Of a stretch of 36,062 nt of DNA, positions 312-21,813 are shown in pieces (within the stretch, counting starts at the first letter, position 1; each line of letters starts with the position of its first letter). A program made the position numbers and the translations under genes. Source of the stretch: an uncultured Lachnobacterium sp. (GTDB lineage Bacteria > Bacillota > Clostridia > Lachnospirales > Lachnospiraceae); the NCBI GenBank assembly GCA_945971355.1, contig CAMFPD010000003.1:1-36062 (forward strand), read 5' to 3'. Below the pieces are notes generated by a model. It worked only from the letters and a program-made list of their open reading frames with translations. It was not told the origin of the DNA and ran no database searches.

Positions 312-2219
312 ATGGGGATGAAAAAACTGGCAATTATTGCAGATGCATGGAAGCGTTATGTAAACTATGCATGGGTTTATGGATGTGAAAAGTATATAGT
401 AGAGCACAATTTGGATGTTGAAGTTGATGTGTTTCACTGCTTTGGTAATATGAGCAAGGACGAATCTAACAATATTGGGGAGTACAATATTATTAATCTT
501 CCAGATTTGACTGAGTATGATGGTATTGTGGTTGAGGTTGCCAATATTGAGATGGAGGATCAGTATAATAAAATTGTCCAGAAAATATTGGATTCTGGCG
601 TTCCTGCGGTATCACTTCTTGTCAAAATTCCAGGAATGTACAGGGCTGGTATTGATAATTACAAGTCAATGAGTCAGATTGTGGAGCATCTAATTTCGGA
701 GCATGGGTGTAAAACCCTCAATTATGTTGGTGGGCCAGTGGATAACAGCGAGAATAATTCTAGACAACGTGCATATGAGGATGTTCTAAGGAAACATGGA
801 ATTAAAGTGGAGCCTGAGAGGATATATCAGGTGAATTATGAAGTGGAAACCGGTATGAAGGCTTTTGATTATTATTACGAGAATAATTTGATTCCGGATG
901 CCTTCGTGTGTGCCAATGAGAATATTGCAGTAGGTCTTTGTCAAAAAGCAATAGACAAAGGGTACAAAATTCCAGAAGATTTCAAGATTACTGGCTTCGA
1001 TGATTTTGACAAAGCATCTTATTTCGAACCAAGAATTACAACTGTCGGTTATAGTAAAGAGAACATAGCATATGAAGCTATGAAGCTTTTGCACCGAATT
1101 TGGCAGGGACAAGAGGTTCCTGAAATCGTATATTCAAAGGCAAATCTCGTATTTCAGGATAGTTGTGGTTGCGTAAATTGCAATCATAAGAAACGAAGTG
1201 ATTTGATAAAGAGTAGAATCTTTTACGAGGTAAGGCAGATAGATTTGTACAATGAGACAACAGATATGAGCAGGAGTCTCATTAATTGTGATACCTATGA
1301 ACAGATGGCAGAGTATCTCTTAAAATGCTTGGTGGGGCTTCGCTGCCAGGAAATGTATCTGGTGATGAATCACGATATTATTGTGTCTCAGGGTAAGGAT
1401 GTTACAGAAGAAGTCCATGAGGAAAATATTGTGGATGGTTATGCAGAACGAATGGATGTTGTCTTAGCATATAAAAAGGGCGAAAAGCAGTACAATGTTC
1501 CTAAGAAAGCAAATGAATTGCTGCCAAAAATCTGGAAGCGACAGAAGGGTGATACCAGGGTGTTTGTGCCTTTACATATGAGAGACAGGGAAGTTGGCTA
1601 TTTTGTTTTGGTAAATTGCGATTATATGATGGAGAATCAGTTTATTTATGAGACGTTGACTTCTTTTTCAAAGGCATTTGAGTACTTGTATAGTAGGACA
1701 ATATTGCAGCGAGTTAATGATAAACTATCAATATTATATTTATTGGATTCGCTCACAGGATTATACAATAGAACTGCTTATAATCAGTTGATTATTCCAA
1801 TGTATGAAAAGTGTATGGCTGAAAAAGAACCGCTTGCTGTTGTATTTTTTGATGCAGATCATTTGAAAACTGTAAACGATAAATATGGTCATGATATGGG
1901 AAATGAGATAATTTTGGGGGTTGCGGATGCGATTAAGAAGTGTTTCCCATTTGATTCAGTGGCTATGAGATATGGTGGGGACGAGTTTGTAGTGCTTGTA
2001 CCTTCCTGTGTAGAGGCTGATGTTGAGGAAATGATAGACAGATTCAATCAGAAGATAAAGGATATTTCAGCAGAAAAAACCCTGCCATTTGCTATTGAGG
2101 CAAGCGCAGGATATGTGATTGCAAGAGACCACTCAAAGGGAATAGATGAATATATAAATGATGCTGATGATATGATGTATCAGGAGAAGAAGAAACGAAA
2201 GGCCGAGAGACTATCATAA
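312..2219 (+). CDS. Sugar-binding-protein-like/GGDEF diguanylate cyclase
   Basis: Cytoplasmic fusion protein of 635 residues. Residues ~1-285 resemble the periplasmic-binding-protein fold of LacI/GalR regulators (opening KKLAIIADAWKR, later ITGFDDFDKASYFEPRITTV), but there is no N-terminal helix-turn-helix, signal peptide or membrane segment. A cysteine cluster (SCGCVNC) follows, then a linker region, and a C-terminal GGDEF domain with intact RYGGDEF at ~553-559, so it probably makes cyclic di-GMP from GTP. The residues where the RxxD inhibitory site should lie read FPFD, so product inhibition looks lost. A sugar or similar small ligand may control activity (inference). The start could be 312 or ATG 318; AGGAAAGG is better spaced for 318. 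The stop codon overlaps the ATG of the phosphatase remnant that follows. Confidence 0.85.
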   Translation: MGMKKLAIIADAWKRYVNYAWVYGCEKYIVEHNLDVEVDVFHCFGNMSKDESNNIGEYNIINLPDLTEYDGIVVEVANIEMEDQYNKIVQKILDSGVPAVSLLVKIPGMYRAGIDNYKSMSQIVEHLISEHGCKTLNYVGGPVDNSENNSRQRAYEDVLRKHGIKVEPERIYQVNYEVETGMKAFDYYYENNLIPDAFVCANENIAVGLCQKAIDKGYKIPEDFKITGFDDFDKASYFEPRITTVGYSKENIAYEAMKLLHRIWQGQEVPEIVYSKANLVFQDSCGCVNCNHKKRSDLIKSRIFYEVRQIDLYNETTDMSRSLINCDTYEQMAEYLLKCLVGLRCQEMYLVMNHDIIVSQGKDVTEEVHEENIVDGYAERMDVVLAYKKGEKQYNVPKKANELLPKIWKRQKGDTRVFVPLHMRDREVGYFVLVNCDYMMENQFIYETLTSFSKAFEYLYSRTILQRVNDKLSILYLLDSLTGLYNRTAYNQLIIPMYEKCMAEKEPLAVVFFDADHLKTVNDKYGHDMGNEIILGVADAIKKCFPFDSVAMRYGGDEFVVLVPSCVEADVEEMIDRFNQKIKDISAEKTLPFAIEASAGYVIARDHSKGIDEYINDADDMMYQEKKKRKAERLS

Positions 2220-20211: not shown

Positions 20212-21813
20212 GTGAAGAAAAAGATTTACACTACCATTAAGTTAATATTGATTATATGTGTTGTTGCATTGATGAGTCTGGGCTGGTTTGTATGTGAGGA
20301 TAATGTTTTCAGTATGTACAAAACAGAGGCAAACAGTACTATTGAGCCGAATTATATAAGTGAGCTTCCTAACGGTACCAGATGTTATCATTTTAATATT
20401 AGAAATGTGACTCATACTACTCACAGTATGCTTTTCTATACGAATCATCAGGAAGTGTATGTGACTGTTGCAGGACGTCTTGTATATTCTGTGGAAAAAA
20501 GCGATTTGATATTTGGTCATACCACTGGTTCAGTGTGGAATAGAGTTGAAACCCCGGCATATTCGTCTCAAGTGGTTGTTATGATAAAACCGGTATATCC
20601 GAATATAACACCAAGTGAACCCCAATTTTATTTTGGCGATGGTGTAGCCATGTATGAGAACTTGATTTGTGGAAGCTTTATTGAGATGGCGGTTTGCCTT
20701 CTGATAATAGCAGTTGGATTATGTCTTGTTGTGTACTTTTTTATCGCTGCACGAGGAAGTAAGGAGATACTGTATCTCGGTTTATTTGCAAGTCTTTTAG
20801 GATTTTGGTCTCTGGGTGAGACTGCAGGAGTGACATTGCTTCTTCAGCAAAGGGTTATGGCCAGCTACTGTGCATTTACCTGTCTTATGATAGTGGGATG
20901 TCCTTTTGTAATGTTTGTGCGTTATTTTCTGCATCTTCATAATCAGAAAATATGTGCTGTTGTGATAGCGATAATTACATCCATTGCTGTATTTTGCCAG
21001 TTGATGCAATTTCTTAATATCAGAGATATAAAGCAAAATGCAGTTCTTATTCATTTTGGATTGCTTGCAGGCTGTCTATATATGTTTGGTGGAATAATTC
21101 ACAATATGATAATTAAAAAGCATAGGCGTAAATCAGCTATATGTCTTGTAGGTGCATCAGTTCTCGGAATCGCAGCAGTTTTAGATACTATTGCATATTA
21201 TGGAGACAGACTTAATGCTAACAGATATTCTAAGTTTGGCTTTCTTGTATTTATTGTAATAATAAGCTTGGAGACTGCAAGATACGCGAAGCTACAGCTT
21301 GAAAAGGAGCGGAAGCTGAGACTTTATCAGGAAATGGCCGTTAAGGATCTTTTGACTAACTGTTATAATCGAAATGCATATAATGAGGATATAGAAAACT
21401 TTGACAAAGATCAGGATACCTATATTATTACTTTCGATTTAAATAACTTGAAGCTCTGCAATGATACAATGGGACACAATGCTGGTGATCAGTATATAAT
21501 TGAGGCAGCTACAATTATCCAGGAAGTCTTTTCTCATGTTGGAAAAGTATATAGAATCGGAGGAGACGAATTTTGTGTTGTTGCAAAGGACACGACTGAT
21601 GAGAAATTGTCAGGCCTTGTGGAGAAGATGAGGAAAAATGAAAGGGATTTTAACATAGATTCACCTATTAAGCTTGCTATTGCATACGGTATGGCGAAAT
21701 ATAATCCGGAAACACATGAAAGCCTGGAAGATACCCGTTCAGAGGCAGATGAATTAATGTACGAAAATAAGAAAGAATTGAAAAAAAGTGACACATTTAG
21801 AAGAATACTATAA
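20212..21813 (+). CDS. Membrane diguanylate cyclase (7TM-like sensor plus GGDEF)
   Basis: Protein of 533 residues. An N-terminal helix (~8-25) is followed by an extracytoplasmic region of ~125 residues, then about seven membrane helices (~150-355), a short coil, and a C-terminal GGDEF domain with YRIGGDEF at ~448-454, so cyclic di-GMP synthesis is likely. The layout resembles 7TMR-DISM receptors, though the extracytoplasmic domain is not one I can name. The RxxD inhibitory site is absent (SHVGKVYRIGGDEF). Start is GTG with GAGGT upstream. Its last 26 bases overlap the methyltransferase gene. This is the second cyclase in the window with an intact active site. Confidence 0.85.
   Translation: MKKKIYTTIKLILIICVVALMSLGWFVCEDNVFSMYKTEANSTIEPNYISELPNGTRCYHFNIRNVTHTTHSMLFYTNHQEVYVTVAGRLVYSVEKSDLIFGHTTGSVWNRVETPAYSSQVVVMIKPVYPNITPSEPQFYFGDGVAMYENLICGSFIEMAVCLLIIAVGLCLVVYFFIAARGSKEILYLGLFASLLGFWSLGETAGVTLLLQQRVMASYCAFTCLMIVGCPFVMFVRYFLHLHNQKICAVVIAIITSIAVFCQLMQFLNIRDIKQNAVLIHFGLLAGCLYMFGGIIHNMIIKKHRRKSAICLVGASVLGIAAVLDTIAYYGDRLNANRYSKFGFLVFIVIISLETARYAKLQLEKERKLRLYQEMAVKDLLTNCYNRNAYNEDIENFDKDQDTYIITFDLNNLKLCNDTMGHNAGDQYIIEAATIIQEVFSHVGKVYRIGGDEFCVVAKDTTDEKLSGLVEKMRKNERDFNIDSPIKLAIAYGMAKYNPETHESLEDTRSEADELMYENKKELKKSDTFRRIL

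Follow-up and report, generated by a model that had tools for sequence, protein, structure and literature searches.

In a review of 2022, the Periplas_BP domain figures as a putative sensor associated with c-di-GMP, its function being predicted only by homology, and SBP_bac_3 is reported as the only member of the PBP clan to have been studied (PMC8846402). Regarding the catalytic GGDEF domain, it is established that one position decides between GTP and ATP, D344 of PleD reading guanine and a Ser or Thr at this place in the Hypr enzymes permitting the use of ATP (PMC9140294, PMC6456294). In the published model, a shortened selectivity residue moreover requires the motif form GGDE[F/Y] (PMC6456294). 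When the DNA described here was first annotated, the combination of a LacI-type sensor with a diguanylate cyclase was called little-studied, which is right in view of the status given to the domain by the review. The architecture is already catalogued; functional work on it seems to be absent from the open-licence literature, where neither LacI-core cyclases nor a GH53–GGDEF fusion turned up as the subject of a study, and the change at the selectivity residue reported below seems to have gone unremarked; our search for the effect of an Asn at this position likewise returned nothing relevant.

The gene is a single open reading frame on the forward strand, at positions 312–2219 of the window (i.e., the whole stretch of 36,062 nucleotides that was analyzed, which belongs to a draft genome of 2.27 Mb), and encodes a soluble protein of 635 amino acids; the second Met (window 318) is the start in many homologues. 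An ortholog with 71% identity is found in the genome of Agathobacter sp. SUG220. Residues 1–283 (312–1160) form a ligand core of the LacI/periplasmic-binding type, as supported by Pfam (Peripla_BP_3 at residues 124–285, E 1.5e-23, with weaker Peripla_BP_4 and Peripla_BP_1 matches over the same core), by AlphaFold2, by Foldseek and by sequence alignments to PDB entries. No Pfam match to the LacI helix-turn-helix (PF00356) was found and the protein begins at the first strand of the ligand core, which bears out the first-pass annotation of a LacI-type domain deprived of its DNA-binding part. Neither a transmembrane segment nor a signal peptide was found, the highest 19-residue hydropathy being 1.3; as no hydrophobic stretch is long enough, the protein is predicted to be cytoplasmic, as had been proposed. 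In the AlphaFold2 model, computed with 37 relatives in the input (mean pLDDT of 89.8), the ligand core is two-lobed, and the top PDB matches of the whole model in Foldseek are the LacI-type cores of CcpA, RbsR and LacI (E about 1e-18).

The sensor is not fused directly to the cyclase, contrary to what had been described. Indeed, about 190 residues (288–477) lie in between and comprise a linker helix (residues 295–324; 1194–1283), an alpha/beta domain (residues about 329–442; 1296–1637) and a 33-residue signaling helix entering the cyclase (residues 445–477; 1644–1742), both helices being taken from the AlphaFold2 model. Even at E 10, Pfam gives nothing for the middle domain, and in eight relatives the Pfam GAF family finds no match in it at the same threshold. 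When the domain is modeled alone (pLDDT of 79.9), most of the PDB structures nearest to it in fold are GAF domains (PDE6C, NLH2, Lcd1 and CodY), with a best E of 0.03 and TM scores of 0.37–0.55, and a profile built on it matches 7 of the 196 genomes of an order-wide sample. From these weak fold matches, the domain would be an undescribed, GAF-like one. The GGDEF domain follows at residues 478–634 (1743–2213; Pfam match at 478–630, E 4e-35; AlphaFold2).

A scan of the contigs with the lone protein gave a single relative, and the survey of the family rests on a separate search of genomes. A count by hand of the matches that run the length of the model finds the sensor in about 50 of the 200 Lachnospiraceae genera sampled; when the sample was drawn from the whole phylum, almost every strong full-length match fell in this same family, with a few distant fusions elsewhere. 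The same sensor module is found fused to GGDEF only, to GGDEF and EAL (L104, L106, L108 and L109), to EAL alone (L103:979–4329), to GGDEF and GH53, and to GGDEF and GH3. In the GH53 proteins (L035:2640–6068, as well as L033, L034, L036 and L111), the LacI-type sensor, the GAF-like domain and the GGDEF domain precede an endo-beta-1,4-galactanase domain (E 1e-87 to 1e-99 in L033, L036, L035 and L111) and a C-terminal tail unmatched in Pfam, within polypeptides of about 1130 amino acids that lack a signal peptide and a membrane stretch. In L035, the acid/base (QIGNEI) and nucleophile (VETA) glutamates are kept when aligned to solved galactanases and, as this locus belongs to a genome assembled in one contig of 3,449,685 bases, the fusion is not an assembly fault. 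The GH53 domain is a separate canonical domain, and we do not accept for these fusions the proposal of a GGDEF domain serving as the glycosidase site (PMC5457731). Another relative (L102:827–5131) carries the same sensor-cyclase with a GH3 glycosidase over 1435 amino acids, its GGDEF motif reading GGDEI. One sensor being joined to GGDEF, EAL, GH53 and GH3 domains, it appears as a modular input for the making and breaking of c-di-GMP, tied to glycan enzymes. The EAL-type relatives (L103, L104, L106, L108 and L109) have a degenerate GGDEF domain or none; their C-terminal regions, which reach about 380 amino acids, are unmatched in Pfam. A further subfamily (L042, L043, L046, L047, L048 and L018) keeps the sensor and the SCGC motif described below with a degraded cyclase motif (SGDEF, DRDEF or SNDEF); judging from these motifs, its members are perhaps non-catalytic receptors.

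We consider it probable that the protein is a soluble one-component synthase of a cyclic dinucleotide, most likely c-di-GMP, gated by an intracellular sugar or oligosaccharide. In this mechanism, the LacI-type clamshell would close on a small sugar or oligosaccharide that is already within the cell, and the movement would pass through the SCGC joint, the linker helix, the GAF-like domain and the long helix. In a presumed homodimer, the two GGDEF half-sites would thereby be re-placed relative to each other and synthesis switched on or off, according to the sign of control that is assumed.

Regarding the ligand, Foldseek places among its top structures RbsR with ribose, a LacI ancestor with fucose and CelR with cellobiose (E 1e-18 to 4e-17). 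The pocket residues, on the conservation of which the first-pass annotation had made its proposal depend, are indeed conserved: of 78 intact GGDEF relatives, all have R151 and D230 and 76 have N202. In order of sequence, the three residues align with the contact positions (Arg, Asn and Asp) of the LacI-ancestor and PurR-type cores, which we take to be R197, N246 and D274 of LacI. At the position of N202, the LacI ancestor has Asn and PurR has Gly, and the pattern is, by alignment, that of the sugar-binding LacI members. Moreover, the GH53 fusions lie in the sister group of the clade of the present protein, and their pocket segments (DGW[KR]R...W, GEY, CANDNIA and TGFDNxDKA) closely resemble its own. 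From the pocket residues and the glycoside-hydrolase fusions of the sister proteins, the latter being in our judgment the best evidence, we infer that the ligand would be a carbohydrate. A sensor binding a nucleoside, a purine or another non-carbohydrate metabolite is an unlikely reading: purines too are ligands of LacI-type cores, one of the best sequence matches is to PurR (E 1e-14) and no sugar operon is conserved beside the gene, but N202 and D230 follow the sugar-binding pattern, PurR having Gly in place of N202, and the sister clade carries glycosidases. Hence, of the sugar or nucleoside control originally suggested, the sugar stands at the level of the family, where predicted cytoplasmic sugar control of the cyclase is well supported by the pocket contacts and the GH53 and GH3 fusions, and the nucleoside has no specific support.

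The neighborhood of the gene was also considered as a source of clues to the ligand. Among the neighbors compared, no conserved sugar operon lies beside the orthologues, which weighs against the sugar-gated reading, and genes for ABC-F, sulfatase and YfhO proteins recur in pairs of genomes only, so that this line was abandoned. One ortholog (G014) adjoins a gene for a methyl-accepting chemotaxis protein (MCP) and a transporter permease, and others adjoin unrelated genes. A GH53 gene beside a paralog of the same genome (L032/L063) was ruled out, the next gene encoding a Na:Ala symporter. In the window, the 3' side of the gene holds a convergent sCache_2 chemoreceptor, a double hemerythrin, an AraC regulator and hexuronate genes, the last beginning 4 kb from it. 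A 53-codon reading frame (2219–2379) overlaps its stop codon (TAATG) and resembles both ends of a protein of the tyrosine-phosphatase type (TRDLGGY ... GMGLS..EIEKLRKKL); it is not found behind the orthologues and is probably a remnant. Between the gene and the convergent chemoreceptor gene, a perfect 12-bp inverted repeat (2387–2418), seen by eye and absent from the output of the scan, is a candidate bidirectional terminator. Elsewhere in the window (20212–21813), a second GGDEF protein of 533 amino acids has Asp at the selectivity position and an N-terminal region of 370 residues without Pfam match at E 1e-6. Beside a sensor-cyclase paralog, we noted a 638-residue protein without Pfam match (L060:10847–12760) and a hybrid histidine kinase that begins with a NUDIX domain (L060:12730–14781).

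Coming to the cyclase domain, the alignment shows an intact catalytic set, with the wide-turn DxLTGLYNR motif, D514, K519, N522, H527, R553 and the GGDEF signature (residues 555–559; 1974–1988), and the domain is thus active-looking by sequence, as first annotated. The lack of an RxxD site noted at the same time is borne out as well, this allosteric site of product inhibition being optional among GGDEF cyclases: the aligned position (residues 545–548; 1944–1955) reads FPFD and none of the 78 intact relatives has RxxD, which implies that feedback via the I-site is absent family-wide. What had been missed is residue 531 (AAT codon at 1902–1904), which alignments and clade comparison place on the purine-selectivity position, corresponding to D344 of PleD and S347/348 of GacA, and which is Asn instead of the guanine-recognizing Asp. 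Asn is present in all 12 members of the clade, a monophyletic group of 12 genomes with a support of 1.0 (FastTree), and the 66 other non-redundant intact relatives all have Asp; this is the sharpest clade-specific change in the GGDEF domain. Being common to 12 separate genomes that form one clade, it cannot be ascribed to chance or to an assembly error. Within its own genome, Asn531 is unique, the other 12 of 13 GGDEF domains with a readable motif having Asp (13 loci printed with Asp or Asn, two of which show the same domain). When 200 genera were searched with a DNA pattern for GHDMGN, this genome alone matched.

Such a fixed change may suggest that Asn531 loosens or alters base recognition, with the enzyme making 3',3'-cGAMP, a mixture of products or a product from another purine nucleotide under the same sugar control. 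This reading draws on the clade-wide fixation and on the uniqueness of Asn531 in its genome, as well as on the position being the one that settles whether Hypr enzymes use GTP or ATP (PMC6456294, PMC9140294); furthermore, all 12 members have the GGDE[F/Y] motif, with its central Asp, that the published model requires for a shortened selectivity residue. However, the known Hypr enzymes carry Ser or Thr and not Asn, and the likely cross-dimer residue R487, assigned from a 44-residue spacing equal to that of R537 and D581 in IsPadC, is Arg in 12 of 12 members, as in c-di-GMP makers. The riboswitches of the genome also speak against it. Indeed, the genome contains 19 GGDEF matches and two c-di-GMP-I riboswitches (L200:1641–1721 on the reverse strand and L201:851–924 on the forward strand), which together imply that c-di-GMP signaling is in use. 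With the numbering of the specificity position that we assume for both, they appear to have G and not A there, and would hence be c-di-GMP-specific, which disfavors cGAMP-type riboswitches in this genome. Altogether, we regard an altered product as improbable, and we give a slightly lower probability to its more specific form, in which a sugar-gated synthase of a gut Lachnospiraceae clade would have an Asn base-reader that does not insist on guanine and would release a different cyclic dinucleotide, for instance 3',3'-cGAMP, or a mixed one.

It is also conceivable that Asn531 has abolished synthesis, the domain then binding GTP or acting by protein contact. In support of such a silent domain, replacing Asp by Ser at the selectivity position inactivated four of five canonical enzymes (PMC6456294); but these four were GGEEF enzymes whereas the present one is GGDEF, and all other catalytic residues are kept across the 12-member clade, unlike in degenerate relatives (SGDEF, GNGEY and others), which makes this possibility very unlikely.

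The synthase gated through its clamshell would relay the signal by the SCGC joint (residues 284–287; 1161–1172), which is nearly invariant and located just before the linker helix. The conserved joint had initially been described as CGCxxC. The true motif proves to be SCGC, with C285 and C287 conserved and the third cysteine, C290, present in only 3 of 78 relatives, and CGCxxC is thereby ruled out as a conserved metal site. In the phylum-wide search, LacI regulators often end in ...RESCG[A/Y/G/F], from which it follows that S-C-G is ancestral and that the second cysteine marks the signaling fusions; fusions in another family (L172–L175) also read FRESCGC and RQSCGC. That the two CxC motifs of a dimer form a metal or redox site, making redox or metal the main input in place of sugar, would fit with CGC being kept in 75 of the 78 intact GGDEF relatives and in the EAL-type ones ahead of the linker helix, but is most doubtful, as S-C-G is an ordinary C-terminal ending of many LacI regulators and the motif could be structural.

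Soluble LacI-type sensors mounted on c-di-GMP enzymes are thus common in a dominant gut family, in versions for making and for breaking the messenger. Judging from the glycosidase fusions, c-di-GMP may be controlled directly by fragments of glycans within the cell, a route by which diet would act on motility and attachment. Moreover, the replacement of Asp by Asn, fixed in the clade at the selectivity residue, offers a natural test of purine choice by GGDEF enzymes and, if the altered-product reading were true, the products of glycan breakdown within the cell would be linked to a second messenger that these bacteria are not known to use.

Finally, the favored sugar-gated synthase combines traits of several known systems. 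With the LacI/GalR regulators (CcpA, RbsR, LacI and CelR), it has in common the fold of the ligand core and the Arg, Asn and Asp contact positions, but it lacks their helix-turn-helix and its output is a cyclase reached through a GAF-like domain and helices. Like RmcA, with its SBP_bac_3 domain (PMC8846402), it places a clamshell domain in a c-di-GMP protein; RmcA-type domains are however periplasmic and act across the membrane, whereas the present protein is soluble with a LacI-type core. IsPadC (5llx), at rank 49 in the full-length fold search, similarly has a GAF-type region and a long helix leading into its GGDEF domain, its sensor being in contrast a light sensor. With the Hypr GGDEF enzymes GacA and Bd0367 (PMC6456294, PMC9140294), it shares a selectivity residue other than Asp together with a GGDEF motif, and it differs from them by having Asn at this position, by the likely cross-dimer Arg (R487) where GacA has Tyr304, and by a sensor that is not a receiver domain.
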